Below are positions 12,026-42,386 of a stretch of DNA of 64,000 bases, in pieces. This DNA comes from Flavobacterium circumlabens (GTDB lineage: Bacteria; Bacteroidota; Bacteroidia; Flavobacteriales; Flavobacteriaceae): contig NZ_SLWA01000003.1 in assembly GCF_004345565.1 (NCBI RefSeq), positions 558,001-622,000 on the forward strand. Direction: 5' to 3'. A program made the translations under genes and the position numbers. A model generated the notes under the pieces. That model was given only the letters and a program-made list of their open reading frames with translations, did not search any database and was not told the DNA's origin. Position 1 is the stretch's first letter, and every line of letters begins with the position of its first letter.

Positions 12026-12091
12026 GAAGTATTATTTAAGGAAAATTAATTATACAAGTGATTTTACAATTCAATTTTGAAATAAAAAGTA

Positions 12092-14044: not shown

Positions 14045-16003
14045 ATGTTTTTAAAAAACGCAAAGACCGCTATTTTTCTATTGATGTTGCTCGTTATAGC
14101 AAAGAGTTCGGCGCAAAACAAACTGAAATCTCATACAGTTTCTCAACAATTTGTGTCTGAATACCCGAGTGAAAAACAATGGGAAAGTATACCAGTACAT
14201 CCTAGGTTATTTGCCAACGATGCACGTATAGAAACATTGAAATTACAAAACGATGAGGTTTCAAAAGCACTATTGTTGTTATTGAAAAATAATGCAGAAA
14301 AGACATTAAAGGCAGGCAAGATTGAATATCCTTCTAAAGGTTTTAAATTAGAAGCTGTTCGGAATGTGCAAGACCGGATATTGACGTTAGGGCTGGCTTT
14401 CCAGGTATTTGGAGACGTACGTTATTTCGAACGTGCCAAAGCAGAGTTGATGCAATTGACAGAGTTACCAGACTGGAACCCGTCTCACTTTCTGGATGTT
14501 GGCGAAGCCACTTTGGCTGCAGGAGTTGGTTTGGATTGGTTTTACAACGATTTTACCCCAACTGAAAGAGAAAAAATTACTCAGGCAATTATAAAAAATG
14601 GAATCAATCCTTCACTGGATGTAAAAGAAAGCAAAGAAAATAATAGCTGGATGAATGCCAACTTCAATTGGAATCCTGTATGCAATGGCGGACTGTTGGT
14701 GGGAGCATTGGCCATTTATGAAAGGGAACCCAAATTGGCACGTCAGATTGTGGAACGTTCCATCAAGTATATACCATACCACGGAGCGGTATATGCACCC
14801 GATGGAACTTATGCAGAAGGGATGGCTTATTGGTCGTATGGTACGCTATATCAAGTAGCTATGATTGAAGCATTACGATCCGTATTTGGGTCTTCTTTCA
14901 AAATAGAATCCTTTCCGGGTTTTCTAAAATCAACAAATTTTATTACACAAAATGTTGGCCCTACAGGTTATGAATATACTTTTTCAGATGCAGGATTTAA
15001 AGAGTCAAAATTGTCCGCAAAACCTCTTGCCGAAAGATTTACTTCTGAACCACTTATGTTTTGGTTTGCCCGAGAAAATAGAAACAGGGTAATTGCTCGA
15101 GATGAGATAATTAGTATTTTATTGGCCAAAAGCATAGTAATAAAGGATACTGTTTCTAATGCTCAAAAAAAACACAGCAGACATTTTGCATTAGAAGTAT
15201 TATGGTGGGATCCAAAATTACCACCTATGGATAAAAAGAGTTTTTTACCCTTGCACTGGACTGCCGATGGTCATATGCCTATGGCGGTAATTCGCTCGGC
15301 TTGGAATGATCCTTTGGCTTCATATATAGCCATAAAAGGCGGTACACCCAATAATTCGCATGGACATATGGATGTAGGTAGTTTTATCATTGAATCCAAT
15401 GGAGTGCGTTGGGCACTGGATTTAGGCGCAGAAAGTTATGACAAAATGCGTGCAGCCAAACTCGATTTGTGGAATTACTCACAAGACAGCAATCGCTGGA
15501 CTACTTTCAGGCCGGGACCGGATTCTCATAATATAGTGCGATTCAATAATTCCAGACAAGATGTTTCGGGTTTAGCAACTATCAGTAAATTAACTGATCA
15601 AAAAGGGGTAGTTGGAAATGTTGTTGACCTCACTTCACTCTATAAATCGCAGGTAGAGAAAGTTTTCAGAACAGTAAAAATGTTTCCAGATAAATCAATA
15701 GTAATTCAAGATGAATGGGAAACGGGAGAGAAGGAGGGAGAATATACTTTTCAATGGGTAACGGGAGCCAAAGTTAGTATTAAGCCGTATGGTGTATTAT
15801 TAGAACAAAATGGTGAATCGATGAAATTGAACGTTGAAATTCCAAATTCCAATGTGAAACCACAAATCCTTATTGAAGATGTTTCAAAAGCAAAAGCAGT
15901 ACAGGATTCAGATAATCCCGGCGTCAGCAGGATGTTAATTAAGCTAAAATACGCTAAAATGAACAAATTTGTATTAAAAATAACTGCTGTGCCTGTAAAA
16001 TAA
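14045..16003 (+). CDS. Heparinase II/III-like polysaccharide lyase, exported
   Basis: The 652-residue protein has a signal peptide (IFLLMLLVIAKSSAQ), then VHPRLFANDARIETL, the opening of many heparinase II/III-type lyases. An alpha/alpha-toroid carries NANFNWNPVCNGG (about 205-216) and PDGTYAEGMAYWSYG (about 252-266). The C-terminal beta-sandwich has NNSHGHMDVGSFIIESNGVRW (about 434-454), the His-rich core of the family. Enzymes with this fold (PL12, PL15, PL17, PL21 and others) cut uronic-acid polysaccharides by beta-elimination, leaving a 4,5-unsaturated uronyl end. That product is the substrate class of the GH105 enzyme encoded at 25198, which ties the two operons together functionally. 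The lyase family and polymer cannot be named from the sequence alone. Confidence 0.82.
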   Translation: MFLKNAKTAIFLLMLLVIAKSSAQNKLKSHTVSQQFVSEYPSEKQWESIPVHPRLFANDARIETLKLQNDEVSKALLLLLKNNAEKTLKAGKIEYPSKGFKLEAVRNVQDRILTLGLAFQVFGDVRYFERAKAELMQLTELPDWNPSHFLDVGEATLAAGVGLDWFYNDFTPTEREKITQAIIKNGINPSLDVKESKENNSWMNANFNWNPVCNGGLLVGALAIYEREPKLARQIVERSIKYIPYHGAVYAPDGTYAEGMAYWSYGTLYQVAMIEALRSVFGSSFKIESFPGFLKSTNFITQNVGPTGYEYTFSDAGFKESKLSAKPLAERFTSEPLMFWFARENRNRVIARDEIISILLAKSIVIKDTVSNAQKKHSRHFALEVLWWDPKLPPMDKKSFLPLHWTADGHMPMAVIRSAWNDPLASYIAIKGGTPNNSHGHMDVGSFIIESNGVRWALDLGAESYDKMRAAKLDLWNYSQDSNRWTTFRPGPDSHNIVRFNNSRQDVSGLATISKLTDQKGVVGNVVDLTSLYKSQVEKVFRTVKMFPDKSIVIQDEWETGEKEGEYTFQWVTGAKVSIKPYGVLLEQNGESMKLNVEIPNSNVKPQILIEDVSKAKAVQDSDNPGVSRMLIKLKYAKMNKFVLKITAVPVK

Positions 16004-22925: not shown

Positions 22926-22990
22926 GAGCGATTTTTTCTATTTATTGAGCGATGTATCCTATAACTCTTAATCTATCGATAATATATTTG
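22926..22990 (+). promoter_or_regulatory. Operator-promoter element, copy B (for the GH10-GH105 operon)
   Basis: Two exact GAGCGAT half-sites at 22926-22932 and 22947-22953 have starts 21 bp apart and the same 14-bp spacer as copy A. The -7 box TATATTTG lies at 22983-22990, again 29 bp after the proximal half-site. The segment between operator and -7 box is less similar to A and C, so the conserved parts are the half-sites, their spacing and the -7 distance. The next intact gene, GH10, begins 337 bp downstream behind a leader with gene remnants. Confidence 0.82.
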
Positions 22991-23326
22991 GTGTCTCAAA
23001 ATTGTTTTTACATAATTCTATAATAATTAACTAAATATAAAAAATGAATAACAAATTTCTATTCTGGATTTATGTATCACTCCGGTATCCGCAAAAGCAA
23101 AATTTGGTGCAGGAAACCTAGTGGTTTCGAAATTTATATATCATTTGGATAAAACTATAGTTACCTTTATTTACGTGCCTTTCAAATGTTTGAACATCAG
23201 CAGAATGAAAATCATAAATAGTCCCTAAATCAGAATTTAACGTAGCTAAATTATAGAAATCTCCAAGCCGACTGCGATGAGTACAAAATATTTAATGAAA
23301 AAATAATTATAAAATAAAACATAGTA
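22991..23326. other. Leader of the GH10 operon with apparent gene remnants on both strands
   Basis: At 23044 an ATG opens MNNKFLFWIYVS. A shifted frame then reads ITPVSAKAKFGAGNLVVSKF, which looks like the end of a signal peptide and the beginning of a secreted protein; it is broken by a frameshift and a stop. On the opposite strand, about 23132-23275, a 48-residue open stretch contains RLGDFYNLATLNSDLGTIYD and DFHSADVQTFERHVNKG, which has protein-like composition but is not recognised. One plausible reading is that the original first gene after promoter B was lost here. Confidence 0.35.
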
Positions 23327-25120
23327 ATGAAATTTAGAATACTTATAATAAGCTTATTTTTTAGCGCCAGCTATATGCTTTCTGCTCAGGAATATCAGCC
23401 GCTGAATCAATCACTAAGTGCACTTGCACCATCAAATATTTTTCCGGCAGACGCTACTAAAAGTTTTAGTTTTACCGATACCAGTAATGGAACTAAACCA
23501 GCCACATTTGAGGTCAATAGTAATAAGAACTCACCTGTATTTGTAGCAGAAGTTTTTTCAACTGCAAAATCACATTTCAATATACAAGCAAGATGGAAAA
23601 GTAACGGAAAAATTAAGAAAGGAGCTGTTTTAATGGCGCGAATGTCCATGCGTGCTGTGTATGCTAAACAGGAATCAGGGGAATCGAATGTTAATTTTTA
23701 CATAGATTCGAAAAATGGTAGCAGAAGTGTCGCCATATTTCTGGCAGCGGGTCCAGAATGGAAAAGTTACAATATTCCTTTTACTGTTAATGCGGATATA
23801 CCTGATGGGGAAGCTTTAATCGGTATTACATTTGGCGCACTTGCTCAAAAAGTTGAAATAACTAATATTGAAGTTTTGAATTTTGAAAATAAAACAACAT
23901 TAGAAAAGTTACCGATTACCCGATTTACCTATTTAGGGCGTGAAGAAAATGCGGCATGGAGAATAGCTGCTCTTAAAAGGATTGAAGAAATTAGAACAAC
24001 ACCACTTAATATTCAAGTTGTGAGTGCAGACGGTAAACCCGTAAAAGGGGCAAAAGTAGAAGCCCGACTTGTACAGTCTGATTTTATTTGGGGAACGGCT
24101 GCCAAAGAAGATTTACTTGCAGAAGATTTACCAAACTCAGTTAAATATAAACAGACTTTAAAAGAATTTTTCAATACAGCTGTCGTTGAAAATGGTTTTA
24201 AGTGTCTTCGCTGGGATTCGCCTTTGCAACCTCAAACTAAACGTGCTTTTGAATGGCTGGAAAAAGAAGGACTGCGTCAGCGAGGTCATAATTTGGTTTG
24301 GATGGGTTGGAAATTCAATGATCCAAAAGTGAAAGAGTTGGCTTTGACAGATACTGCGGCTTTTGAAGCTTATATTATCAAAAATATTAAAGAAAAAATG
24401 GCTTACACCAAAGGTCGTGTTATTGCTTTGGATGTAATTAATGAATACAATCATGAGCAGGATTTTTTAAAATACTTACCAAAAGATATTGCCATAAAGT
24501 TTTATAAACTGGCAAAAGAACTCGATCCAAAAGCGCAACTTTTTATGAATGAGTACGCAATGCTCAACAGTATCGAGAGTCCACGTAATATTAAAACCTA
24601 TCTCGATACTATTGCAACAATGCGTGCAAAAGGTGCGCCGATAGATGCCATTGGTATTCAAGGACATGTGGGACGCCAGCCCCGAAATCCGGCTCAGGTA
24701 ATTACCGATTTGGATATGTTTAATTCTACTGGTTTGCCAGTACAAATTACCGAATTTGACGTGAATACTCCCGACGAAGAATTGCAGGCCGATTATACAC
24801 GTGACTTTTTGATAGCTTGTTACAGTCATCCTACTGTTAGCGGTTTTGTTAAATGGGGATTTTGGCAAAATGCACATTGGAAACCTGATGCCGCTATGTT
24901 TCGCACCGATTGGACAGCTAAGCCAAGTGCCGCTATATGGCGGGAATGGGTATTAGGAAAGTGGAAAACATCGCTGTCAGAAACTACTACCCAAATAGGT
25001 AAAGTTGAATCACGTGGGCATTTTGGCAAATATGAAATCACTGTAACCAAAGGAAAAAAAACTAAGAACGTAATTTACCAGTTGTCGAAAAATGCTGAAC
25101 CAATTGTTGTGAAATTATAA
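23327..25120 (+). CDS. GH10 family glycoside hydrolase with N-terminal CBM-like domain, exported
   Basis: The 597-residue protein has a signal peptide (FRILIISLFFSASYMLSAQ), a beta-sandwich of about 170 residues that resembles a carbohydrate-binding module, and a GH10 TIM barrel from about residue 225. Catalytic residues are E373 in ALDVINEYNHE (acid/base) and E476 in VQITEFDVN (nucleophile). GH10 enzymes are retaining endo-beta-1,4-xylanases or related endo-glycanases. The barrel motif is INEYNHE rather than the usual VNEA, and the DFIWGTAAKEDLL region is typical of divergent non-classical members, so xylanase activity should not be assumed. It is the first intact gene after promoter B and is followed by GH105 after about 80 bp. 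Confidence 0.88.
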   Translation: MKFRILIISLFFSASYMLSAQEYQPLNQSLSALAPSNIFPADATKSFSFTDTSNGTKPATFEVNSNKNSPVFVAEVFSTAKSHFNIQARWKSNGKIKKGAVLMARMSMRAVYAKQESGESNVNFYIDSKNGSRSVAIFLAAGPEWKSYNIPFTVNADIPDGEALIGITFGALAQKVEITNIEVLNFENKTTLEKLPITRFTYLGREENAAWRIAALKRIEEIRTTPLNIQVVSADGKPVKGAKVEARLVQSDFIWGTAAKEDLLAEDLPNSVKYKQTLKEFFNTAVVENGFKCLRWDSPLQPQTKRAFEWLEKEGLRQRGHNLVWMGWKFNDPKVKELALTDTAAFEAYIIKNIKEKMAYTKGRVIALDVINEYNHEQDFLKYLPKDIAIKFYKLAKELDPKAQLFMNEYAMLNSIESPRNIKTYLDTIATMRAKGAPIDAIGIQGHVGRQPRNPAQVITDLDMFNSTGLPVQITEFDVNTPDEELQADYTRDFLIACYSHPTVSGFVKWGFWQNAHWKPDAAMFRTDWTAKPSAAIWREWVLGKWKTSLSETTTQIGKVESRGHFGKYEITVTKGKKTKNVIYQLSKNAEPIVVKL

Positions 25121-25197
25121 ATTGGGAACATAATACACTTCGATTGAAGGACAGGTTGTAATTAAATTTAATGATAAATATAAATAGTATAAAATAT

Positions 25198-26337
25198 ATG
25201 AAACGTCAATTCACTTTCTTATCTGTGTTATTTTTGATAAGCATAAGCCTATTTGCTTCAAACAATACAGAAAATAAAAAAAAGTATTATAACCCAAAAC
25301 AAATATTAGCAACAGTTGAAAAAGTAGCCGATTGGCAACTTAATTCTTGGAAAAAAGACGGTATGATTTATCCAAAATGGGACTGGACAAATGCGGCAGG
25401 GTATGTTGGTATGTATCATTTGGGTACTATTAGCAAAAAATCAGATTATCATGATATTTTATTGTCGATAAGCAAAGAATTGGATTGGAACACGGGTCCT
25501 GAACGATTTTATGCCGATGATTATTGCATAGGTTATACGTATTCAAAGCTTTCGTTAAAACATAAAGACCCGAAAATGATAACTCGATTTCGGTTGTTGG
25601 CAGATAGTATTGTAGCGCAACCACATACTGAATCATTAGAGTGGAAAAATGAAATTAATCATAGAGAATGGGCTTGGTGCGATGCATTGTTTATGGCGCC
25701 TCCAGCGCTATCGATGTTATCTATCGCTACTAAAGACCCGAAATATTTGGAGATTACTGATAAACTTTGGTGGAAAACGTATGATTATTTGTATGATAAA
25801 GAGGAGCATTTGTACTACAGAGATGGAAGTAATTTTACCAAACGTGAAGCAAACGGACAAAAAGTGTTTTGGTCTCGTGGTAATGGCTGGGTTATGGCAG
25901 GTTTAGTTTTATTGCTTGATAATATGCCAAAGAATTATTCAACTCGCGCCAAATATATTTCACTTTACAAAGAAATGGCGGCAAAAATGGCTTCCATTCA
26001 ACAGCCCGATGGAAGTTGGCATACTTCTTTGTTAGATCCTGAGCGTTTTGATGTGATTGAAACAAGTGGGACTGGGTTTTATACTTATGCAATATTGTGG
26101 GGATTAAACAATGGTACATTAGATAAGGCAACCTATTTGCCTGTAGCATTAAAAGCTTGGAAAGCATTAGAATCTGCCATACAGCCTAATGGAATGTTAG
26201 GATATGTGCAGCCAATCGGTTGGCAGCCTGCAGCGGCAACTCAAAGTAGCACGGCAATTTTTGGCGTTGGAGCTTTTTTGCTCGCTGGAACAGAGATGTA
26301 TAAATACACAAAAAAATCAAAAATAGCTAAAAATTAG
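25198..26337 (+). CDS. GH105 family unsaturated uronyl hydrolase, exported
   Basis: I chose the ATG at 25198, where the signal peptide MKRQFTFLSVLFLISISLFA starts, over the in-frame ATG at 25171. The 379-residue protein is an alpha/alpha-barrel with YADDYCIGYTY (D107/D108, catalytic Asp region), REWAWCDALFMAPP, WSRGNGWVMAGL (225-236) and ETSGTGFYTYAILWG, all GH105 hallmarks. These enzymes hydrate and release the 4,5-unsaturated uronic acid left at the non-reducing end by lyases. Its presence implies a uronic-acid polymer attacked by a lyase, in line with the heparinase-like gene at 14045. The next gene starts 7 bp after its stop, so the genes are translationally close. Confidence 0.92.
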   Translation: MKRQFTFLSVLFLISISLFASNNTENKKKYYNPKQILATVEKVADWQLNSWKKDGMIYPKWDWTNAAGYVGMYHLGTISKKSDYHDILLSISKELDWNTGPERFYADDYCIGYTYSKLSLKHKDPKMITRFRLLADSIVAQPHTESLEWKNEINHREWAWCDALFMAPPALSMLSIATKDPKYLEITDKLWWKTYDYLYDKEEHLYYRDGSNFTKREANGQKVFWSRGNGWVMAGLVLLLDNMPKNYSTRAKYISLYKEMAAKMASIQQPDGSWHTSLLDPERFDVIETSGTGFYTYAILWGLNNGTLDKATYLPVALKAWKALESAIQPNGMLGYVQPIGWQPAAATQSSTAIFGVGAFLLAGTEMYKYTKKSKIAKN

Positions 26338-26344
26338 AATTGAT

Positions 26345-27631
26345 ATGAATATCGTAAGAAAAATTATTGTACTTACAATACTAATTACAGGACTCTTCAG
26401 TTCCTATACACTATTTGCTGGATCCAAAGCAAAACGACCAGTAATCTTACTTCGATCGGGCTGGCAAGTGGAAAATATCGGAGACATCGCCCATACACCT
26501 GGTTTTTTAGCTTTGACAGAAAAGTATATCCCTAAAGCAGAAGTAATCTTTTGGCCATATTATCATTATTTGCCTGAAAATGAAGTGGCAATGCTAAAAA
26601 AACGTTTTCCAAAGATGAAAATAGTGCTAGGAAAATTATCTCCAGAAGGAGTGGCATCGACTCCAGAATTGGCTGAAGCGATAAGTAAATCAGATATTCT
26701 CATTAATAACTCGGGTCCAGCAACAATAGGATGGGCAGATTTAAAAGCATACAAAAAAGCAACAGGAAAGCCAATCGGTGTTTATGGTGTTACTTATGGT
26801 TTGTATGGTATGCCGGAAAAGGAAATATTGAGCGAAACAGAATTTGTTTTTTTTAGAGATACTGTTTCTTTAGATAAGGCTAAAAAAGAGGGAATAGATG
26901 CCAAGATTATGACTTGGGGACCTGATGCCGCTTTTGCTACCGATGTAGAAGATGAAACCAAAGCTAAAGCTTTTCTAAAGGAAAATAATCTTGAAACAGG
27001 TAAATTTGTTTCTTTCATTCCCAAGCATCGGATGACTCCAGTTTGGTTACACGAACACAAAAACAAACACTTTGATGCAGATCGCAATGCACGCAATGAA
27101 GCAATGAAAGAACATGACCATGCACCAATGATTGAGGCAATAACGGCTGTAGTTCGACAAACAAATCTCAAAGTGCTGATAGTGTCCGAAGATGAAACGC
27201 AAATCTCCATAGGCAAGGATTGGATTTTTGACAAGCTTCCTGAAGATGTAAAGCCACGGGTGGTGTGGAGAAATACAGGATGGCTTACTGACGAAGCTGT
27301 AAGTATATATAAACGATCTGCCGGGCTAGTAAGCCACGAGCAACATAGCCCGATAATGTGTATTGGCCATGGAATACCTGCCCTTTTAGTTCGTTGGGAG
27401 GAGCAAAGCTCCAAAGGATATATGTGGAATACCATTGGGCTTCAAGATTGGCTATTTGATTTCGATAAAGAGGCCGACATCAAGCGCTATGTTCCGACAG
27501 TACTTGATATGGTCAAAAATCCCAAAGCCGCCAAAGCAAAAGCCAATAAGGCTAGGAAGTTTGTTCAAGAAAAACAGAAAGAAACGATGAAAGTGGTAGA
27601 AAACAGTTGTTGGGTTAATATAAAAAAATAA
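26345..27631 (+). CDS. Polysaccharide pyruvyl transferase-like protein with a signal peptide
   Basis: The protein has 428 residues and begins with an export signal (KIIVLTILITGLFSSYTLFA). The mature part follows the polysaccharide pyruvyl transferase pattern (PF04230-like): LRSGWQVENIGDIAHTPGFLAL, DILINNSGPATIGW, FFRDTVSLDKAKKEGI, TWGPDAAFATDVED and SHEQHSPIMCIGHGIPALLV. Classical family members add pyruvate ketals from phosphoenolpyruvate in the cytoplasm while capsules are built. An exported relative between a GH105 and a GH154-like gene is in a degradation context, where phosphoenolpyruvate should not be available. A role in recognising or removing a sugar substituent is an inference only. 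It is tightly placed (7 bp after GH105, 58 bp before DUF2264). Confidence 0.8.
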   Translation: MNIVRKIIVLTILITGLFSSYTLFAGSKAKRPVILLRSGWQVENIGDIAHTPGFLALTEKYIPKAEVIFWPYYHYLPENEVAMLKKRFPKMKIVLGKLSPEGVASTPELAEAISKSDILINNSGPATIGWADLKAYKKATGKPIGVYGVTYGLYGMPEKEILSETEFVFFRDTVSLDKAKKEGIDAKIMTWGPDAAFATDVEDETKAKAFLKENNLETGKFVSFIPKHRMTPVWLHEHKNKHFDADRNARNEAMKEHDHAPMIEAITAVVRQTNLKVLIVSEDETQISIGKDWIFDKLPEDVKPRVVWRNTGWLTDEAVSIYKRSAGLVSHEQHSPIMCIGHGIPALLVRWEEQSSKGYMWNTIGLQDWLFDFDKEADIKRYVPTVLDMVKNPKAAKAKANKARKFVQEKQKETMKVVENSCWVNIKK

Positions 27632-27689: not shown

Positions 27690-29744
27690 ATGACAATAGA
27701 TTTATTGAGAAAGCCATTACTTTTAGTTGCTTTATTTTACTCAGCCAATATGATTGCACAACAAAATGTGATTAATTCACACCAAGTTGTATCTGAAAAA
27801 TCACAAGTTTTTCAAATAAAAAACCCTGACAACTTATTGAGCCCTTATACCGGGATGACTCGCGAGCACTGGAAAGATGCCGGCCTTTACTTATTAAAAG
27901 GAGCATTTAGTTATATCAAAACGCTGGACGACCCGATGCTCTTCCCGAAACAAGAAGGAAAATCATATCCGCGTGACGGGAAAGATTCAGAGACTGAAAT
28001 GCTGGAAGGGCTTTGTCGGACGATGTTCATTGCAGCGCCGCTGTTGAAAGAAAATCCATCATTAAAAATAAATAATATTAGTGTGGCTGACTATTATCGT
28101 CATCAAATAGAAAAATTGACTGACCCAACAAGTGCTACTTTTATCAAGCGCAGGGAAGGTAATTATTCTAGTCAGAATTTGGTAGAATTTGGTGCTTTAT
28201 CGATATGTCTTTTTGCAGCCCCTGATGTTCTTTGGAAACCACTGTCTCAAGAGAAGAAAGATGCACTGGCAATTACTATGCTTAGCTATGGCGACGGGCC
28301 GACAGTAGATTCTAACTGGAAATTCTTTAATATTTTTGTATTAAGCTTCTTTAAAAGCGAAGGGTATGCTATGGATGAAACTCTTTTAGAAGGCTATCTT
28401 AAAAAATCGTTGGCACATTATCGTGGCGATGGTTGGTATAATGATGCTCCATGTTACGATTATTACAGCATGTGGGCATTTCAAATGTATGGTTCAATCT
28501 GGTCGGAGTATTTTGGAAAAAAATATTATCCAGAATTCGCAGCACAGTTTAAAACTAATTTCAAGGATTTGAAAAATAATTATCCATACATGTTCAGCCG
28601 TGATGGGGAGATGATTATGTGGGGACGAAGTATAACCTATCGTTTTGGTTCAATTTCTCCATTTCCATTGATGGGATTCGAAAACGACCCACAAACTAAT
28701 TATGGCTGGATGCGCAGAATATCTTCCGGCGTTTTGCTTCAGTTTTTAAAGAATCCAAATTTATTAAAGGATAATGTTCCAACACTGGGTTTCTATGGTG
28801 AATTTGAACCGGCAGTGCAAAGATACAGTTGTCGTGGCAGTGCTTTCTGGATGGCAAAAGCGTTTTTAGGCTTATTGGTTCCTGCCGAGAATCCATTCTG
28901 GACTGCTACAGAAAATGATGGTGCTTGGGAAAATGAATTGATTAAGGGTAAGGTATATAATAAATTTTCAGAGAAATCCGAGGTTTTAATAACCGATTAT
29001 CCCAACATTGGTGCGGCCGAAATCCGTGCTTGGAGTAGTGCAATAAAAGGCACCGGCGATCCGAATGATTTTTATCGCTCAAATGAAAATTACAACCGCC
29101 TTGCATACAACAGTGCTTTCCCGTGGCAGGCAGATGGTGTAAATGGCGAAGTGGCCATGAATTACGTGTTCAAAAACAATACCCAGAAATGGGAAGCAGT
29201 TACTTTATACACTTTCAAAAAATTTGAAAATGGAATTTATTATCGCGATGTGGTGTTGGAAAGTGATGCAGCAATAAGTATGCGTTTAGCTGATATTACG
29301 CTGCCTAATGGAATTCTGAGAGTGGATAAAAATGTAAGCACTAAAACTGTTGACCTTCGATTGGGGCATTATTCGTTGCCAGTAGTTAAAAATAAAATTA
29401 AACGTTCGAATCGTGCCATAAATGGATACAATGTACAAATCATAGATAATGGAGTTTATCAACTGGCAATGATTCCAATTTCTGGTTGGGGCAACTCAAT
29501 GGAAGTGATCGATACAAAAGGATTGAATCCAGTGAGTAATGAAAGTTCTATTATAAATGTATCCGATAAATTTGTTACAACTAAAAACCCTCTTTATATT
29601 ACCCTGATGCTTTGGAAAAAATCGGGTGAGAAATGGACTAATAATGAATTAGTTCCAATAAAAAACCTTACAGTATCCAACGATAATAATAACGTTAGTT
29701 TTGATATCATTGGAGGTGACAAAAAAACAGTTTCATTCAATTAA
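27690..29744 (+). CDS. DUF2264 protein, GH154-like candidate beta-glucuronidase, exported
   Basis: The 684-residue protein has a signal peptide (PLLLVALFYSANMIAQ). Its body begins SPYTGMTREHWKDAGLYLLKG and has YPRDGKDSETEMLEGLCR, DSNWKFFNIFVLSFFKSEGY, GDGWYNDAPCYDYYSMWAFQMYG and SRDGEMIMWGRSITYRFG, typical of DUF2264 (PF10022). That family has been linked to CAZy family GH154, which includes beta-glucuronidases; I rely on memory for this link. An alpha/alpha-barrel exo-enzyme is likely. It is the last gene of the operon and ends at the strong terminator at 29770-29806. With GH105 it suggests that the substrate carries both internal and terminal uronic acid. Confidence 0.78.
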   Translation: MTIDLLRKPLLLVALFYSANMIAQQNVINSHQVVSEKSQVFQIKNPDNLLSPYTGMTREHWKDAGLYLLKGAFSYIKTLDDPMLFPKQEGKSYPRDGKDSETEMLEGLCRTMFIAAPLLKENPSLKINNISVADYYRHQIEKLTDPTSATFIKRREGNYSSQNLVEFGALSICLFAAPDVLWKPLSQEKKDALAITMLSYGDGPTVDSNWKFFNIFVLSFFKSEGYAMDETLLEGYLKKSLAHYRGDGWYNDAPCYDYYSMWAFQMYGSIWSEYFGKKYYPEFAAQFKTNFKDLKNNYPYMFSRDGEMIMWGRSITYRFGSISPFPLMGFENDPQTNYGWMRRISSGVLLQFLKNPNLLKDNVPTLGFYGEFEPAVQRYSCRGSAFWMAKAFLGLLVPAENPFWTATENDGAWENELIKGKVYNKFSEKSEVLITDYPNIGAAEIRAWSSAIKGTGDPNDFYRSNENYNRLAYNSAFPWQADGVNGEVAMNYVFKNNTQKWEAVTLYTFKKFENGIYYRDVVLESDAAISMRLADITLPNGILRVDKNVSTKTVDLRLGHYSLPVVKNKIKRSNRAINGYNVQIIDNGVYQLAMIPISGWGNSMEVIDTKGLNPVSNESSIINVSDKFVTTKNPLYITLMLWKKSGEKWTNNELVPIKNLTVSNDNNNVSFDIIGGDKKTVSFN

Positions 29745-30079: not shown

Positions 30080-30129
30080 TATCTACTCCCACTACTACTA
30101 TTACTATTTAATTGATACATCATATTGCT

Positions 30130-32943
30130 TTGAAAAAATTTATAAGTATTTTAATCTTCCTTTCTCTGTTAGGACTGCAACCATCCTATGCACAAATTGT
30201 ACCTCTTCAGATTTTCAATACAGAGGGAAATAGTGGAAGAGTTAATTGCCTGTTTCAGGATAAAATGGGTTTTATCTGGATAGGAAAAGAAACAGGATTG
30301 TACCGTTATGATGGACATGAGTTGAGGAGCTTCAAGTCAAAACCAAATGATGTAAATTCTATTAGCAGTGATAATATTGTAGCAATAAATGAAGATACAT
30401 TGGGGAACTTATGGGTTGGTACAAGAAGTGGCGGTCTGAATTGTTTGGATAGAAAAAGTGGTAATTTTAAGCGTTATATACATGATGAGAACAATCCAAA
30501 CTCTTTTAGTTTTAATGAGGTTTGTACTATTTTGCCTGATGCTGTTGGTAATTTATGGATTGGAACAGATGGTGGCGGTTTAAATTTTTTCAACAAAACT
30601 ACAGGTAAATTCACCGCTTTTAAAGTGGGCAAAAAGAAATGTAAAAATCTAGACAGCAATAAGATAATTCACATAGAGCCTGCCGGAAAAAATAAATATT
30701 GGCTGGGAACATGGGCGGGAGGTCTGTATCTTTTTGATTCAGTGACCAACTGTTTTCAAAAAATGGGCAAAGGGACAAATTATGAGAGCAGCAATATTTA
30801 TTTTATAAAAGAAGTAAAACCTGGAACGCTATGGATTTCGACAGATAACAAAGGATTAATTTCTTTTGACATAAAATCCAAAACATTTTCTACCGTGATT
30901 CCTGAAGGCCAAGCTTTTTTTTTACATAACATAATTAATACAAATAAAGGTGAGGTGTATGTTGCATCTAACAGAGGATTATATTACTTTGCCTCTGTAA
31001 CTTCGCAACCACGGTTATCCTTCGAATTCAATTCCATACAGTGTTTCTTTTTAGATAAAACACAAACGCTCTGGGTCGGGAACTCAAATGGCAAGGTTGG
31101 AAAAATCAATTCGTTTAACAAGCAGTTTCATTCAATTTCAGCCAATGACGTACTTAAAAATTTTGTTTCGTCCATGTTTTTTGACACTATTTCTAATACA
31201 TTGTATTTCTCTTCTCAAAACCATTTTGTAGCATACAATCCTATCACCAGGAAAGCAAATTTAACATCGTTGCCACAGCAGTTTTGGTATTCGTTTTTTA
31301 AAATTCGAGGAAAAAAGGATGAATTTATTGTAGCGATACGCTCCGTCGGATTGCGGATATTCAATTATAAAACTAAATCATTGACACCTTTGAAATTTGA
31401 GAGCAACCCGTACAAAAATCTCTTGGATTCTGAGATTAACATGATTAGCCCAGATGGTTCTAAAGGTTTTTGGATTAGTGCCAATGGAGCGGCATTTCAG
31501 ATTAATCAAAATGAAAAATCAGGTAGTTGGAAAATTGTCAAAGCAATAATTCGGAGTGAAAAAGGGTTACTTTCAGATTCGGACTTTCCAACTTGTTTTC
31601 AATTGCATCCTAATGGTGATTTTTTTATTGGAACTCAAGGAGGCGGCTTAAATCAGCTGACTAAGTCAGGAAAGCAAAAAAAATATTTGTCGTCCGCGAC
31701 CGCAAGTGATTATAAATTGTCAAACGATTTTATTGAGTGCATGGCAGTCGACAAAAAAGGAAACCTTTTGGTTGGTACGCAAGCGGGATTAAATAGATTT
31801 AATGTAAAAACAGGGTCATTTAGCAAATTGATGACTACCTCCGGACTTATTGATAATTGGATTTTATCAATAGTCACAGATGCTAAAGACAGAATCTGGA
31901 TTAGTACAAGAAAAGGTATTTCCCGAATTTCATCTGACTTTAAAAGTATTAAAAATTATAATACGGATGACGGAATACTATCTGATTCTTTCCTTGCAAG
32001 ATCTGCTGCAAAAGATATTCTTGGTAATATTTATTTTGGTTCATCAAAAGGGATGGTTTGGTTTCACCCTGACAGCATATATGATAATCCACATATGGCG
32101 GATGCAGCGATAGTAGGTTTGAAAATTAATGAAAAATATGTAGGTGTCTCTGAAAATTCAGTTTTAAAACAAAGTATAGAGCTTACGAATGAAATAGTAT
32201 TAAATAGAGATCAGTCTTCTTTTTCATTCCAATTAGCAGCTTTAAACTATTTTAATCCCGGAAAAAATAAAATTCAATATAAGCTGGAAGGATACGAGGA
32301 GGATTGGCAAGTGGCCGATGTCAATCAGGTTGCATCTTATTCTGAAGTCTCTCCCGGAACCTATACTTTTAGTGTTCGGGTTTCGAACGATGATGAAGTC
32401 TGGAATCCGGTTCAAAGAAAACTGGTGGTAAAAATAATAAGACCTTTCTGGATGTCGTGGTATGCTATTATTATTTATTTATCAGTAGTAGGGGGGACTT
32501 TCTATTTTATACGTAAAAGTATTACAAAAGAGTTGAACTCTCGAACCATTTCAAGTGAATTAATAATTCAAATTCCTATAAAGGAAGAAGATACAGCCGA
32601 TCAGAAATTTATCAAAAAAGCATTGGCGTTAATAAATGAAAATATTGGCAATAGTGAATTTGGAGTACTCCAATTGGCCGAAAAAATGAATTGTAGTCGT
32701 GCTCACTTATATCGAAAAGTGATTGCAATGACTGGAGTCTCAGTTTCGGATTTTATAAAACAGACACGGATAACAAAGGCAGCTCAATTACTTTTACAAA
32801 AAACAGGAAATATTTCGGATGTTGCTTATAGCGTTGGATTTGATAATCCTGGTTATTTTAGCAAATGCTTCAAAAAACAGTATGGTGTTACTCCTGCAAA
32901 CTATATTGTAAATCATTTAGATCAACAAAATACTGATGATTAA
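30130..32943 (+). CDS. Membrane-spanning one-component regulator: Reg_prop/Y_Y_Y sensor fused to AraC DNA-binding domain
   Basis: I place the start at the TTG at 30130, giving KKFISILIFLSLLGLQPSYAQ as the signal peptide; a TTG at 30112 is also in frame. About 640 residues of Reg_prop propeller repeats follow (MGFIWIGKETGLYRYDG, GNLWVGTRSGGLNC, GNLWIGTDGGGLNF), then a Y_Y_Y domain (IQYKLEGYEEDWQVA) and one membrane helix (about residues 773-795). A short linker leads to an AraC helix-turn-helix (LAEKMNCSRAHLYRKVIAMTG, DVAYSVGFDNPGYFSKCFKKQ). In hybrid two-component regulators of Bacteroidota a histidine kinase and receiver sit between these parts; here they are absent (937 rather than roughly 1,350 residues). 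It is the best candidate to bind the three GAGCGAT elements. Confidence 0.9.
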   Translation: MKKFISILIFLSLLGLQPSYAQIVPLQIFNTEGNSGRVNCLFQDKMGFIWIGKETGLYRYDGHELRSFKSKPNDVNSISSDNIVAINEDTLGNLWVGTRSGGLNCLDRKSGNFKRYIHDENNPNSFSFNEVCTILPDAVGNLWIGTDGGGLNFFNKTTGKFTAFKVGKKKCKNLDSNKIIHIEPAGKNKYWLGTWAGGLYLFDSVTNCFQKMGKGTNYESSNIYFIKEVKPGTLWISTDNKGLISFDIKSKTFSTVIPEGQAFFLHNIINTNKGEVYVASNRGLYYFASVTSQPRLSFEFNSIQCFFLDKTQTLWVGNSNGKVGKINSFNKQFHSISANDVLKNFVSSMFFDTISNTLYFSSQNHFVAYNPITRKANLTSLPQQFWYSFFKIRGKKDEFIVAIRSVGLRIFNYKTKSLTPLKFESNPYKNLLDSEINMISPDGSKGFWISANGAAFQINQNEKSGSWKIVKAIIRSEKGLLSDSDFPTCFQLHPNGDFFIGTQGGGLNQLTKSGKQKKYLSSATASDYKLSNDFIECMAVDKKGNLLVGTQAGLNRFNVKTGSFSKLMTTSGLIDNWILSIVTDAKDRIWISTRKGISRISSDFKSIKNYNTDDGILSDSFLARSAAKDILGNIYFGSSKGMVWFHPDSIYDNPHMADAAIVGLKINEKYVGVSENSVLKQSIELTNEIVLNRDQSSFSFQLAALNYFNPGKNKIQYKLEGYEEDWQVADVNQVASYSEVSPGTYTFSVRVSNDDEVWNPVQRKLVVKIIRPFWMSWYAIIIYLSVVGGTFYFIRKSITKELNSRTISSELIIQIPIKEEDTADQKFIKKALALINENIGNSEFGVLQLAEKMNCSRAHLYRKVIAMTGVSVSDFIKQTRITKAAQLLLQKTGNISDVAYSVGFDNPGYFSKCFKKQYGVTPANYIVNHLDQQNTDD

Positions 32944-34318: not shown

Positions 34319-37300
34319 ATGAAAATAGTATTCTGTAAGATTAATTACCTCGTAATGACTTTAAGTGTTTTTTCTTTAGTACCTGAAATCGCTGCCAACA
34401 ATGTTGGTGCGATAAAAGGTAACAGTTCAAAAACAACTGAAGTTACTGCCGAAATCGGCAATGGGTTAAATGTATCCCGTCCTGCTGCTGAAGATTATTG
34501 TATTACTTTAATACCAATTGAAGGCAATTCTTCTAATGAAACATTCGATTTAAATGACTCTGACTTAGGTTTAAAAAACATAGTCGTAAAAGGTAAAGTA
34601 ATAGATCCTGCCACCGGATTAGGTATTCCCGGGGTAACTGTTTTAATAAAAGGAACCCAAAAGGCGGTTTCTACGGATTTTGAGGGAACCTTTCAAATTG
34701 ATGTAGATAACAGCAACGCCATATTGATTTTCAGTTTTATAGGTTATGATACCATTGAAGCGGCAGTAGGAAATAAAACGTTACTGAATATATCGCTCCA
34801 GCCTTCCAATACAACTTTAAGTGAGGTTATCGTGGTAGGTTTTGGTAAACAGAAAAAGATTAATGCGACGGGAGCTATATCCACTTTATCAGGAGAAGCT
34901 TTAACTCAATCACCTGTTGCAAACATTAGTAACTCATTAGTTGGTCGTGTTTCGGGTGTATTCGCTACACAAGGCGGAGGTGAACCTGGAAATGATGCGT
35001 CAAAAATTAGAATAAGGGGTGTAGGTACTTTTACAGGAAACACAGATCCTCTCTATTTAGTAGATGGAATGCAAGTTGACAACATCAATAACATTGATCC
35101 CAACGAAATTGAATCCATAACAGTTTTGAAAGATGCATCATCTACCGCAGTATATGGAATTAGAGGAGCAAATGGTGTATTGATTGTTACCACTAAGAGA
35201 GGTAAAACAGGTCCGCCAAAAATCAGTTACACATTCAACATAGGTGTAAATAAATTTACCGACATGCGCGAGGGCATGAATAGTGCCGATTATGCTTCAA
35301 ATTTTAATCGTGCGTTAGAAAATGATTCTTTTGTTACTGGGGCAGTTTATGTACCAAAATTTACCGAAGCTCAAATTGAATTGTATAGAAATGGAAGCGA
35401 TCCTGTATTTTACCCAAATAAAAATTGGCCTGATGAAATGTTTAGTAAAAACTCCACTCAAACACGCCACAACCTACAGTTAAGTGGAGGTTCGTTGAAA
35501 ACAAAATACTTAGTGTCTTTAGGCTATTTCTCTCAAGAAGGATTGTTTAAGGATACCAAAGATATTGTTGATGCATTTTCCCCACAATCCACTTTCAAGA
35601 GATATAACCTTCGTTCCAATTTTGATTTTATCATTACTGATCGCTTAAAAATGAAAATTGATTTGTCCTCTCAAACAGAAGCCAGAACCGGTAATAACGC
35701 AAGTAATACTGAGAGAGTAATTGGAGATATTTTTCGTGCTAGTCCATTAAGTTCGCCGGGAATAATAGATGGTAAAATAGTTAATCTTACTACTGTTGAA
35801 AACAATCCTTACACGTCTTTACTTTTACCAAATAACGCTGGAGGGTTAAAACGTTCTTATCGTAATTATTTTAATGGTCTCATTCGTTTCGATTATGATT
35901 TAGGCTTTATTACTAAAGGGCTTTCTGCCCAAGCGAACATTGGCGTTCGAACCTATAATGACCAAACCGTTACAAATGCTAGAACTCTTGTTACCTACTT
36001 AGCAGTTAGACAAACTCCACCTGCCACTGGAATAAATTTTATACCAAGTCGTGATGAAGCTAGTCAATTTAATTTTGCACAAACAAGAAACTTTTATCGA
36101 CAAATTACTGCCGAAACTGCTTTAAATTATTCAAGAAGTTTTGGAAAACACAATGTAAAGGGCTTATTGCTTTACAATGAGCAAAAAACCTTCGACCCGG
36201 ATTTAGCTTTCGACATACCAAAAGGATATCAAAGTTATGTTGGTCGTGCAGAATATAACTACGATAGTCGTTATTTAGCAGAATTTAACATTGGTTATAC
36301 TGGTACTGAAAATTTTGCAGAGGACCAACGATTTGGTTATTTTCCAGCTTTTTCATTAGGTTGGGTAGTTTCACAAGAATCTTTTTTTCCAAAAGATGCT
36401 TTTGTTAGTTTTCTGAAAATCAGAGGTTCTTATGGAGAAGGAGGGAATGATAATATTGGAGGTAATCGCTTCTTGTATAGACCAACAAGCTATAGTACAT
36501 TTCCAAATGCGTATTATTTTGGAAATATAGGTTCAACTCTTGCCACTACTCAAGGAGTTAGAGAAGGTGCTACTGGGAATCCAGATGTAACTTGGGAAAG
36601 ATCCGTTAAACGAAATATTGGTGTTGAATTAAATGTTTTAGATAATAAAATAAAATTTAATGGTGATCTATTTGATGAATATCGTGATGGTATTTTAGCG
36701 GCAACTCAAACAATTTCATCAATATCAGGATTGGAACAACCTTTTACTAACCTTGGAATTATGGCAAACAAGGGATTTGAGGCAGAAATATCATACAGTG
36801 ATAAAATAGGTCAAGTTGGTTTCAGTATTTCAGGTAATTATAGTTTTGCGCGAAATAAAATTCTATACCAAGATGAAATTCCTAGAGAATTTGATTATCA
36901 AAGAAGAACTGGTCAAAGTACAGGTCAATTTTTTGGTCTAGTTGCCGAAGGTCTTTTTAATACGTGGGATGAAGTAAACGCCCCTGATAGACCTATTTAT
37001 TCTTTTGCTAACAACAAAATTCAGCCTGGAGACATTAGATACAAAGATGTAAATCAAGATGGCGTAATTGATTATGATGATTCCGTGCCAATTGGGTATT
37101 CACGAATACCAGAATCGACATTTGGGGTAACACTTAGAGCAGATTACAAAGGGTTTGATGCAACTGTTTTATTTCAAGGCGTAGGTAATGTATCTCACGA
37201 GTATACTCGTTTTCAAAGAAGTACTGGTTTTAATCAAACCCCAAATGAGGGTTCTGCAAGTTATATGAATGAAAGCTGGACTCAAGAAAGATACGATGCA

Positions 37301-37609
37301 GGGTTACCTATTAACTTTCCTCGTTTTACTACATCTGCCAATCCAAACCAAGAAGCATCATCGTTCTGGTTGGCTGATGCTAGTTATATACGTTTAAAAA
37401 GTGTAGATGTTGGATATAATTTTAAGGGCAGTTTTCTGAAAAAAATTAGAATTACTAGCTTACGTTTTTATGTAAATGCAAACAACTTATTTACATGGTC
37501 TAAAATGTTGCCAGGTATTGATCCGGAGAATGTTTCAGCAGTTAGTCCCAATGAGGAGCCATATCCTTTGACACGTACAATAAATACAGGTTTTAACATT
37601 AATTTTTAA
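34319..37609 (+). CDS. SusC/RagA-family TonB-linked outer-membrane transporter (first pair)
   Basis: The 1,096-residue protein is a full SusC. A signal region lies at about 1-27, followed by a Ser/Thr/Asn-rich stretch of about 60 residues and a carboxypeptidase-regulatory-like domain (VVKGKVIDPATGLGIPGVTVLIKGT, about 89-165). The TonB box/plug comes next (LSEVIVVGFGKQKK, then DPLYLVDGMQVDNIN and TVLKDASSTAVYGIRGANGV), then the 22-strand barrel ending TRTINTGFNINF. With the SusD partner it imports oligosaccharides across the outer membrane using TonB energy. The extra stretch between signal and first domain is longer than usual. susD1 follows after 11 bp. Confidence 0.95.
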   Translation: MKIVFCKINYLVMTLSVFSLVPEIAANNVGAIKGNSSKTTEVTAEIGNGLNVSRPAAEDYCITLIPIEGNSSNETFDLNDSDLGLKNIVVKGKVIDPATGLGIPGVTVLIKGTQKAVSTDFEGTFQIDVDNSNAILIFSFIGYDTIEAAVGNKTLLNISLQPSNTTLSEVIVVGFGKQKKINATGAISTLSGEALTQSPVANISNSLVGRVSGVFATQGGGEPGNDASKIRIRGVGTFTGNTDPLYLVDGMQVDNINNIDPNEIESITVLKDASSTAVYGIRGANGVLIVTTKRGKTGPPKISYTFNIGVNKFTDMREGMNSADYASNFNRALENDSFVTGAVYVPKFTEAQIELYRNGSDPVFYPNKNWPDEMFSKNSTQTRHNLQLSGGSLKTKYLVSLGYFSQEGLFKDTKDIVDAFSPQSTFKRYNLRSNFDFIITDRLKMKIDLSSQTEARTGNNASNTERVIGDIFRASPLSSPGIIDGKIVNLTTVENNPYTSLLLPNNAGGLKRSYRNYFNGLIRFDYDLGFITKGLSAQANIGVRTYNDQTVTNARTLVTYLAVRQTPPATGINFIPSRDEASQFNFAQTRNFYRQITAETALNYSRSFGKHNVKGLLLYNEQKTFDPDLAFDIPKGYQSYVGRAEYNYDSRYLAEFNIGYTGTENFAEDQRFGYFPAFSLGWVVSQESFFPKDAFVSFLKIRGSYGEGGNDNIGGNRFLYRPTSYSTFPNAYYFGNIGSTLATTQGVREGATGNPDVTWERSVKRNIGVELNVLDNKIKFNGDLFDEYRDGILAATQTISSISGLEQPFTNLGIMANKGFEAEISYSDKIGQVGFSISGNYSFARNKILYQDEIPREFDYQRRTGQSTGQFFGLVAEGLFNTWDEVNAPDRPIYSFANNKIQPGDIRYKDVNQDGVIDYDDSVPIGYSRIPESTFGVTLRADYKGFDATVLFQGVGNVSHEYTRFQRSTGFNQTPNEGSASYMNESWTQERYDAGLPINFPRFTTSANPNQEASSFWLADASYIRLKSVDVGYNFKGSFLKKIRITSLRFYVNANNLFTWSKMLPGIDPENVSAVSPNEEPYPLTRTINTGFNINF

Positions 37610-37620
37610 ATTCTTTTATC

Positions 37621-39423
37621 ATGAAAAAAATATATAGTTTTGGGTTATTATTATGTTTATTAATAACATCCTGTAATGATGATTTTTTAGAAAAAGCCCC
37701 AGGAGTAGATTTAACGGAAGATTTCGTATTTACCAATAAAGCTAACTTAGATGTATTCATAAATACAATTTATAGATATGGTGTCCACTCTAATTTTCGT
37801 TATGGAAATTATGCGAGTAGTTATCCTTTTTCAAAAACAACAAATACTGGTAGCATTCATCCAAGTTCTAGTATTAGCGATGAAGGTGATGCCTCACAAC
37901 AACCTGGTACTGAAGGAAACAACGTTTGGAACTCAGGTAATATATTACCAACAAACATTCATACTACCGAAGATATTCGTTATTACATTCGTTGGATAGC
38001 CATACGCCAAATCAATTTGGTTTTGAAAAGAATCAATGAAGTGCCAGACCTTGATGAAAATTACAAAAATCGAGTAATTAACGAGATTAAGTTTATTAGA
38101 GCTTTGAACTACATGGAAATGCTTAAGCGCTATGGTGGCATGCCAATTGTTACTGAAGTATATGAAGCAGGAGCACCAATTGTTAATCCGAGAGCTACTT
38201 TCGAAGAGTGTGTTAATTTTATTTTAGAAGACTTAGAAGGAGCCATCATAAATTTACCAGCTACACATTCTGCGTCTGAGACAGGAAGAGCGACCAAAGT
38301 AGCCGCAGCGGCACTAAAATCTGAGGTATTACTATATGCGGCTAGTCCTCAGTACAATACGGCAACTCCTGTATTATCCATGGCTAATGCAGCAGACAAT
38401 AAATTGATATGTTATGGTAATTATGACGCCAATCGCTGGAAGCTAGCAGCTGATGCTGCAAAGGAAGCACTTGACTTAGCGACAGCAAATAATTATCTAT
38501 TAGTTGATGTAGTAGCCAATAGAAATCCAAATGATTTAAACAATGGAACATTAGGTCCATTAGGTAATTATCGTGTTTCTTGGGAAGTTCCTAATAACTC
38601 AGAAGTAATTATGATGTATCAAGGGGGAGCTAATAGAGCTAATGGTGTAACTGCCAATTATTGGGATCCATTGGCATTTTGGAACCCTAGAAGTTTCGGC
38701 TCTTTTTGGAGTGGCATAACTGTTCCCTTAAACTTTTTTAAGAAATATGAGAAATTGGATGGAACACCTCAAACTTGGGAGGCTACTGGTGGTACAGATT
38801 TAATTGCAAAATATGCACAATTAGATCCTCGATTTAAACAATCAATGACATATACAACTGCCTATCATTTCAGTAGTTTTAATTTTGCTGAAATTTACGA
38901 AGGAGGAAGAGACTATCCGCTCTGTAATGGTGGGATGTGGTTACGAAAATACATTCCAAGAAATGGGAATAATGCATATTTTCCAATGGATGTCATCTTT
39001 CGAGTTAACGAACTGTACCTCAATTATGCCGAAGCACTTAATGAAGCATCAGGAGTTCCTCCAATAGAGGCTTACAATGCTGTTAACGCCATAAGAAACC
39101 GCTCAGCCATGCCTAATCTTCCAGCGGGACTAACCAAAGATCAATTTAGAGAGCGTGTTAGAAATGAAATTGCAATAGAAATGCTTAATGATGATCATCG
39201 CTTTTGGGATGTGAAACGTTGGTTAATAGCTCAAGAGGAAGGTGTAATGCAAGGAGATTTTCATGGAATAAAGATTACTAGAACAGGTACAGCACCCAAC
39301 TATAAATACTCATGGGTGCCTTATAAATTTGAAACTAGAGTTTTTCCAGATAAAATGTATCTACACCCTTTGCCACTAAATGAAGTACAAAAAGGGAATT
39401 TAATACAAAATCCAGGTTGGTAA
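37621..39423 (+). CDS. SusD/RagB-family glycan-binding lipoprotein (first pair)
   Basis: This 600-residue protein has a lipoprotein signal (LLLCLLITSC, acylated Cys18 followed by NDD, a surface-export-compatible start). The SusD TPR-type fold is clear: FLEKAPGVDLTEDFVF, RWIAIRQINLVLKRINEVPDL, EIKFIRALNYMEMLKRYGGMPIV. The C-terminal family end is LNYAEALNEASG, YNAVNAIRNRSAMP, RNEIAIEMLNDDHRFWDVKRW and PLPLNEVQKGNLIQNPGW. It caps the SusC1 barrel at the cell surface and binds the glycan. It lies 11 bp after susC1 and 46 bp before a second susC, in one operon. Confidence 0.95.
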   Translation: MKKIYSFGLLLCLLITSCNDDFLEKAPGVDLTEDFVFTNKANLDVFINTIYRYGVHSNFRYGNYASSYPFSKTTNTGSIHPSSSISDEGDASQQPGTEGNNVWNSGNILPTNIHTTEDIRYYIRWIAIRQINLVLKRINEVPDLDENYKNRVINEIKFIRALNYMEMLKRYGGMPIVTEVYEAGAPIVNPRATFEECVNFILEDLEGAIINLPATHSASETGRATKVAAAALKSEVLLYAASPQYNTATPVLSMANAADNKLICYGNYDANRWKLAADAAKEALDLATANNYLLVDVVANRNPNDLNNGTLGPLGNYRVSWEVPNNSEVIMMYQGGANRANGVTANYWDPLAFWNPRSFGSFWSGITVPLNFFKKYEKLDGTPQTWEATGGTDLIAKYAQLDPRFKQSMTYTTAYHFSSFNFAEIYEGGRDYPLCNGGMWLRKYIPRNGNNAYFPMDVIFRVNELYLNYAEALNEASGVPPIEAYNAVNAIRNRSAMPNLPAGLTKDQFRERVRNEIAIEMLNDDHRFWDVKRWLIAQEEGVMQGDFHGIKITRTGTAPNYKYSWVPYKFETRVFPDKMYLHPLPLNEVQKGNLIQNPGW

Positions 39424-39469
39424 ATGCATTGGCGATTTTAACTATCAATTTAACCCGAAAAAAATAATT

Positions 39470-42361: not shown

Positions 42362-42386
42362 CTCCTTAATATTTAAAAAAATTATT

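Follow-up and report, generated by a model that had tools for sequence, protein, structure and literature searches.

How does a protein of a family named for pyruvyl transfer come to be encoded among genes for the breakdown of glycans, and what might it do there? The question is raised by a gene in a window of 64,000 nucleotides of the Flavobacterium circumlabens genome (the whole stretch of DNA analysed here), which encodes a PF04230 (polysaccharide pyruvyl transferase) homologue that begins with an apparent signal peptide. Phosphoenolpyruvate (PEP) is a metabolite of the cytoplasm, outside which it would not be expected. A reading made from the sequence alone had placed the gene in a degradation operon and suggested that its product might recognise or remove pyruvate ketals, or another substituent, from the substrate.

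The gene and its locus

The assignment of the 428-residue protein to PF04230 is borne out by a profile match of E 4.3e-11 and 43.7 bits against a cut-off of 25.3, in which residues 44-351 cover positions 1-278 of the 280 in the profile (PS_pyruv_trans); at E≤0.001 it is the single PF04230 match in the genome. Its N-terminus, MNIVRKIIVLTILITGLFSSYTLFA followed by GSKA after the putative cleavage site, is Sec-like as judged by eye and by hydropathy, in line with the signal peptide read earlier, so that features of the sequence support the predicted export of the protein. The gene is the third of a tight run composed of GH10, GH105, PF04230 and DUF2264 genes, followed by a regulator and two SusC/SusD-like pairs (Table 1), the latter assigned from the first three translations and from similarity to SusC/SusD-like genes of other loci. 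The spacing is as had been described, with 7 bp separating the gene from the end of the GH105 gene (26337) and 58 bp from the start of the next gene (27690). The upstream neighbour had been read as GH105 and indeed matches PF07470 (GH88/105), the nearest solved relative of its product being an unsaturated 3S-rhamnoglycuronyl hydrolase (4ce7). The downstream neighbour had been called GH154-like; it is a PF10022 (DUF2264) gene, the nearest solved relatives of its product are named beta-D-glucuronic acid or glucuronate dehydratase (9o4u, 9nwf), and the GH154 label holds only in so far as DUF2264 is linked to GH154, as we presume. Further upstream in the window are two GH92 genes and genes of GH2, GH3, GH129-like, heparinase II/III-like lyase, GH36-, GH30- and GH65-type, and downstream are genes for a beta-helix protein, a mannosidase-type GH2 and an MFS transporter. 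The description of the context as a degradation operon is therefore supported. The claim that the gene stands under a glycan-responsive promoter is not, since the interval 22237-23326 upstream of the GH10 gene contains one TAnnTTTG, which we take to be the promoter motif, on the plus strand and no full promoter pair.

Table 1. Features of the window bearing on the PF04230 gene (window positions; residue numbers are those of the encoded protein)
Feature	Positions	Strand	Remarks
Heparinase II/III-like lyase	14045..16003	+	nearest solved 8khv, 8khw, PL35 chondroitinase 9o3q
GH10-family gene	23327..25120	+	first of run, 50 bp before GH105
GH105/GH88 unsaturated uronyl hydrolase family gene	25171..26337	+	PF07470
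Gene for exported PF04230 protein (predicted)	26345..27631	+	ATG start, 428 aa; model pLDDT 91.0
Sec-type signal peptide (putative), residues 1-25	26345..26419	+	cleavage site by eye; model low-confidence stretch 18-28
D47 of NIGD motif	26483..26485	+	41/41 homologues
R171, position of PEP-binding Arg of CsaB (R148)	26855..26857	+	41/41 homologues; 29/30 controls
E332, replaces Arg of R-x-H motif (CsaB R306/Pvg1p R337)	27338..27340	+	Glu in 41/41 homologues
H334, position of PEP-binding His (CsaB H308)	27344..27346	+	41/41 homologues; 30/30 controls
S355-S356-K357	27407..27415	+	Ser/Thr in CsaB K328 column; Lys two positions later invariant
DUF2264 gene, relative of glucuronate dehydratases	27690..29744	+	PF10022
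Regulator	30112..32943	+	two-component propeller, Y_Y_Y and AraC-type HTH domains; hybrid two-component-type
Two SusC/SusD-like pairs	34319..44132	+	34319-37609, 37621-39423, 39470-42361, 42387-44132

Two further features of the window were noted. A 530-residue open reading frame without a Pfam match at E 0.001 lies within the locus at 48567-50159 (+). A tyrosine recombinase of the phage-integrase family is encoded at 54686-55948 (−), approximately 10 kb downstream of the SusC/D genes, and no tRNA was detected in the window; the degradation locus may be mobile.

The distribution of the PF04230 homologue gene is rare and patchy. With the window's own genome counted in each case, a homologue is present in one of 150 genomes of the genus, three of 149 of the family and two of 395 of the class; in the family of Pedobacter frigiditerrae it occurs in 16 of 201 genomes, once as a 51-residue fragment. 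A pattern-based scan of species genomes, whose count is incomplete, found at least 20 homologue loci, in Bacteroidota of several orders and in one Verrucomicrobiota MAG, and the viral contigs searched held no relative of the window protein. The nearest relative (79% identical) is encoded in a Saccharicrinis MAG, whereas within the window's own family (149 genomes) the two remaining matches reach 50% and 36% identity, a difference that suggests horizontal transfer.

The PF04230 clade and its gene neighbourhoods

All 26 homologues of one alignment match PF04230 at E≤0.001. In a phylogenetic tree, a branch with an SH-aLRT value of 100 separates 41 homologues from 28 cytosolic PF04230 proteins (Escherichia coli WcaK and 27 proteins encoded in genomes of the window's family), which supports the assignment of the window protein to a distinct PF04230 clade. 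The tree, from which L073 and L077 were omitted for length, is a quick search with long control branches, and as the control sample is small, a place within the clade is still possible for cytosolic members from elsewhere. The predicted signal did not fail in the homologues: a hydrophobic N-terminal stretch ahead of the core, of export type, is found in 40 of the 41, the single miss being L017, whose start was not settable in an over-long frame. A Tat-like RR motif is present in 29 of these N-termini and, by a loose pattern, a lipobox-like cysteine in nine; in this set L047 was dropped as a copy of L015, and L012 was entered without its first residues. By comparison, 21 of 30 cytosolic controls have the start of the NxG[D/A/G/N] motif at residue 25 or earlier, leaving no room for a signal, and a comparably hydrophobic stretch occurs in the first 40 residues of seven of the 30, mostly in or beside the core strand.

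In keeping with the degradation operon of the sequence-only reading, the homologues lie beside SusC/SusD genes and genes for glycan-degrading enzymes and not in biosynthetic clusters. SusD families were the most frequent (12) among 59 immediate neighbours of homologues, a count made one gene to either side with the window, L012 and L017 excluded and neighbouring PF04230 genes skipped. Further families were FAD oxidoreductases (3), GH88 (3), beta-helix proteins (3) and heparinase II/III (2), with single matches to PL8, DUF2264, GH65 and GH92, and no glycosyltransferase family appeared among the best 25 of the 73 families matched by these neighbours. PF14307, named ‘Glycosyltransferase WbsX’, is matched by the neighbour at L018:6866-7966; we take the kin of this family to be hydrolase-like although its name implies synthesis. 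The biosynthetic setting that had been stated for the usual members of the family was also recovered, in that cytosolic PF04230 controls adjoin glycosyltransferases: the 70 proteins beside 18 such genes (two of the 20 control loci, L099 and L100, being left out with their PF04230 frame not located) included 10 of GT2, eight of GT1, four of Polysacc_synt, three of NeuB and three of Wzy_C. Among the homologue loci, 13 carry, as judged by eye, an ECF sigma factor-like and FecR-like anti-sigma pair beside SusC, SusD and PF04230 genes.

The gene content shared with the window is greatest among its close relatives. In the near clade (L005-L017), nine of 13 loci have a homologue at least 45% identical to a gene of the window's degradation locus, and six have two or more, compared with two of 25 other homologue loci and one of 40 SusD control loci; these figures count L048 among the other loci despite its near-clade position in the tree, and moving it to where the tree places it changes them to 10 of 14 and one of 24. 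The 40 control loci were taken in even steps through the best-scoring matches listed, with overlaps replaced, from nine of the ten searched genomes, and when the control was restricted to the 12 loci from near-clade genomes (G000, G685, G687 and G894) the figure was one of 12. The contrast between nine of 13 and one of 40 argues that the near clade is part of a single conserved degradation system, now spread over several orders. A catabolic role of the clade is strongly supported. In G894, which is also the genome of L011, a SusD control locus (L181) contains GH129-, GH30- and beta-helix genes that share 56-66% identity with those of the window, and the degradation system of this genome may be split over two loci.

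A general link to the processing of uronic acids was considered and rejected. Genes of this kind were found in 10 of 39 homologue loci and six of 40 SusD loci, using GH88/105, heparinase II/III, PL8 and DUF2264 seeds with same-locus seeds excluded, an exclusion by which L048 and L143 go uncounted although their GH88 and heparinase-type genes match Pfam; the difference is not clear, and the link is therefore not used as an argument. At the other extreme of gene content are four Dyadobacter records (L019, L021, L023 and L024, positions about 1-10.6 kb), in which SusC and SusD genes are followed by two tandem PF04230 genes of different subclades, the run holding no other gene and hence no glycosidase. 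The next gene is on the opposite strand in these records, and genes that by eye are sigma/anti-sigma-like precede the run.

Fold and putative active site

The structure model of the window protein (pLDDT 91.0, pTM 0.88) has a two-domain GT-B fold. Its best fold matches are UDP-GlcNAc 2-epimerases and GT4 enzymes (3ot5_B by VIA-align, Z 23.5, rmsd 4.5, 344 aligned), which have the overall fold in common with the window protein but use nucleotide-sugar substrates in the cytoplasm, with 7-14% identity among the fold matches listed. MshA (3c48_B), described by the authors of the Pvg1p study as a look-alike of that enzyme in the available part of their text (PMC4872226), is in the Foldseek list, and Pvg1p itself (5ax7) is absent from the best 50 matches of both Foldseek and VIA-align. 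Sequence searches of solved structures with the protein and with the alignment returned only weak matches (MreB, alcohol dehydrogenase and others), which were taken as chance.

The most informative comparison is with CsaB of Paenibacillus alvei and Pvg1p of fission yeast, ketal pyruvyl transferases of PF04230 type that have the GT-B fold and the NxGD motif in common with the window protein. In the available part of the CsaB report, R148, H308 and K328 have important roles in the binding of PEP and R306 also lies in the docked site, the Pvg1p counterparts being R217, H339, K361 and R337 (PMC10435577). We related these residues to the window protein through motifs shared with WcaK-type cytosolic relatives rather than by direct alignment, leaving out CsaB R207 and Pvg1p D106. 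The PEP site proved not to be intact. The positions of CsaB R148 and H308 (Pvg1p R217 and H339) are kept as R171 and H334, whereas that of R306/R337 is occupied by glutamate and that of K328/K361 by Ser/Thr, the latter in all of 45 homologues. The window protein differs from both enzymes also in its predicted export and in its catabolic operon; a predicted transmembrane region is described for Pvg1p (PMC4872226, available part). In the E332 column the 30 cytosolic controls have Arg in 15, Ser in 14 and Ala in one, and this is the unbiased figure, as 13 ‘R-type’ comparison rows were selected for the R-x-H Arg by construction. E. coli WcaK, the colanic acid pyruvyl transferase, has R335-L-H where the window protein has E332-x-H, and its gene, unlike that of the window, is in a biosynthetic operon. 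Pairwise BLASTP between the two proteins gives one stretch of 22% identity over 87 columns (E 0.011), and a profile alignment with WcaK and three relatives repeats the pairing of residues (probability 97.2, 355 columns). Invariance across the 41 homologues, but not across the controls, is also seen for H50, R229, W313 and K357, and 49 positions, clustered in motifs, are identical in at least 40 of the 41.

The invariance of R171 and H334, together with the changes to E332 and Ser/Thr, suggests that the pocket has been kept as a site, and not as the PEP site of CsaB. From the first two residues we infer that the ligand of the clade probably carries a carboxylate. The replacement of the Arg and Lys of the PEP site makes a PEP-using transferase outside the cytoplasm unlikely, and that the window protein is probably not a PEP-dependent transferase is well supported.

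Candidate reactions

Pyruvate ketals cap many bacterial exopolysaccharides, xanthan included. The reading that we favour, tentatively and with somewhat less than even confidence, is that the clade has been recruited to glycan breakdown, most likely to remove such ketals. To judge from the gene neighbourhood, the protein would act in the periplasm or at the cell surface on oligosaccharides imported by SusC/SusD, and, given that PEP is cytoplasmic and that the PEP site has lost two of its basic residues, it would do so without PEP. The reaction would be the removal of pyruvate ketals from sugar residues, with the ancestral carboxylate-binding part (R171 and H334) still holding the pyruvyl group and E332 acting as an acid/base to bring in water in place of phosphate, so that the second half of the pyruvyl-transferase reaction would run backwards with water. 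In the window, the uncapped sugar would then be open to exo-glycosidases, after which the DUF2264 glucuronate dehydratase-like enzyme and GH105 could proceed. Ketal hydrolysis by E332 in particular, a proposal drawn from alignments, we hold with about the same confidence. Several observations count against the ketal reading. A xanthan-lyase-like gene adjoins a homologue in one locus only, as described below, and uronate-processing genes are not clearly enriched. The Dyadobacter runs contain no glycosidase, which would be surprising if the enzyme had an accessory part in removing caps. Only 15 of the 30 cytosolic relatives have Arg in the E332 column, and the name of the PF14307 neighbour in L018 points to synthesis.

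Other enzymes are known to degrade pyruvylated sugars while leaving the ketal in place. PvGal-ase, a beta-galactosidase of family GH1 (ORF1119 of Bacillus sp. HMA207), splits the glycosidic bond and sets pyruvylated galactose free intact, according to the available part of the report (PMC6090015). Xanthan lyase (PL8) likewise acts on pyruvylated side chains but is a lyase of another family, and the ketal stays on the released mannose; as far as the available text of a review goes, characterized xanthan lyases are specific for pyruvoylated mannose, one also taking bare mannose (PMC10881899). Such a PL8 directly adjoins a homologue in L054 (genome G809), where the order is SusC-like, SusD-like, one gene, GH88, PL8, PF04230, two genes and a second PF04230. 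This PL8 scores 577.7 bits in a near full-length alignment against the Paenibacillus xanthan lyase and 565.8 bits against the best Bacillus-type xanthan lyase entry (2e22), compared with 310.8 bits against the best hyaluronate lyase. A Paenibacillus xanthan cluster comprises GH9, GH38, GH92, two GH88 and two PL8 genes in the available text of PMC12827396, and GH38, GH92 and GH88/105 genes also occur beside PF04230 homologues. Between the two PF04230 genes of L054 are genes for proteins of 1400 and 646 residues (8669-12874 and 6497-8440, both on the minus strand), which have no Pfam match except for a sub-threshold secretion tail in the larger and which match heparinase II/III seeds weakly, only in the E 1e-6 seed search.

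A link to xanthan across the homologue loci was likewise considered and rejected. Xanthan-lyase-like PL8 genes (at least 580 bits) were found in two of 34 homologue-bearing genomes (G809 and G893). They occur in one of 201 genomes of the family of G809 (next best 136 bits), in two of 384 of the order of G893 (G893 and G1160, the third match, in G1067, scoring 241.5 bits) and, at E≤1e-60, in none of 390 genomes of the window's class, a set without a positive genome. Among G809, G893 and G1160, a homologue adjoins the lyase gene in G809 only: in G893 there is none on the lyase's 23.6-kb contig and the homologue lies elsewhere (L007, with L008 bearing the same isolate name), and in G1160 there is none in the 60 kb examined with the lyase-like gene.

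In the open-access literature as available, no paper was found that connects the PF04230 family to polysaccharide utilization loci or mentions a depyruvylase by name, and ‘depyruvylation’ appeared only for modified FucoPol and xanthan. Among the literature matches listed, the family name led to one paper, on Klebsiella phage resistance, and the available main text of PMC12827396 has no word beginning ‘depyruv’ or ‘pyruvate’. The clade belongs to a known family, and its enzyme activity would be new if shown. Ketal removal, if true, would fill a gap in the breakdown of pyruvylated polysaccharides, give a function to genes labelled ‘polysaccharide pyruvyl transferase family protein’ (the name on the one annotated homologue record, from Spirosoma) and provide a tool to edit xanthan-type gums. 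Even with a different reaction, the clade clearly exemplifies a biosynthetic family that has passed into catabolism and altered its active site, and its automatic name misleads.

Four other activities were weighed against ketal removal. An unlikely one, which nevertheless fares best of the four, is that the protein is a GT-B-fold glycosidase, transglycosidase or esterase in which pyruvate is no longer involved. The fold matches are broadly GT-B (3ot5_B, Z 23.5; GT4), the contexts of the homologues are diverse, and the Dyadobacter runs without another enzyme would fit a main degradative enzyme; however, the invariance of R171 and H334 suggests that a carboxylate-bearing ligand is still held, and the nine near-clade loci with window degradation genes are already supplied, mostly with glycosidases and lyases. 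Decidedly less probable is action on 4,5-unsaturated uronic acid ends, that is, their hydration alongside or instead of GH88/GH105. These uronates are, like PEP, enol ethers of an alpha-keto acid, so that a pocket once used for PEP could protonate them and add water; the loss of its basic residues fits a ligand without phosphate, and GH88/105, heparinase II/III-type lyases, PL8 and the glucuronate dehydratase relative are among the neighbours. Against this, the window, L009, L010, L020, L022 and L054 already have a GH88/105-type gene, and uronate genes are not clearly more frequent in homologue loci (10 of 39) than in controls (six of 40).

Surface glycan-binding proteins are common next to SusD, and the homologue adjoins SusD in many loci, which together with the loosely defined lipobox-like cysteines would suit a protein that binds acidic, perhaps pyruvylated, oligosaccharides without catalysis. 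We consider this improbable, by a little more than uronate hydration, as the 49 near-invariant positions and the full two-domain enzyme fold look like catalytic constraint and the majority of the N-termini are Tat-like. That the protein is still a PEP-dependent pyruvyl transferase in an unusual place, to which the Pfam family and the kept R171 and H334 would point, is very improbable indeed given the export signals kept across the clade, the catabolic neighbourhoods, the change of Arg to an invariant Glu with loss of the PEP lysine, and a compartment in which PEP is not expected.

A homologue from the actinomycete Nonomuraea gerenzanensis (L143:14995-16281, +) bears on the wider role of the clade. 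Its product is 30% identical to the window protein and 33% to that of L054, has the same NIGD, R, E-x-H and K residues, and from its likely start has no signal; it was not in the 41-homologue tree and may be a cytosolic member inside the clade. The gene lies between one for a LacI-type regulator and those for two ABC permeases, a solute-binding protein and a heparinase II/III-type lyase, a context that supports the catabolic role. Oligosaccharide enzymes of Gram-positives are often cytosolic, and the periplasm in Bacteroidota and the cytosol behind an ABC importer are the usual places for enzymes that trim imported oligosaccharides. The Nonomuraea protein suggests that the activity of the clade does not depend on export in itself. 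The broadest form of the ketal proposal, which we put forward with more reserve than either ketal removal or the part given to E332, is that the clade, exported in Bacteroidota and apparently cytosolic in the actinomycete, consists of depyruvylases whose reaction was enabled by an Arg-to-Glu swap in the PEP site and which supply a missing step for pyruvylated bacterial and algal polysaccharides.

A further family recurs beside these genes. FAD-dependent oxidoreductases (PF12831) adjoin the PF04230 gene at L046:7732-9555, L056:10643-13792 and L057:10546-13716, and a member of the same family with a Tat-like N-terminus (L187:4939-6357) lies two genes from the xanthan-lyase-like gene of G1160; it is possible that this oxidoreductase is a partner of the PF04230 protein or a stand-in for it.
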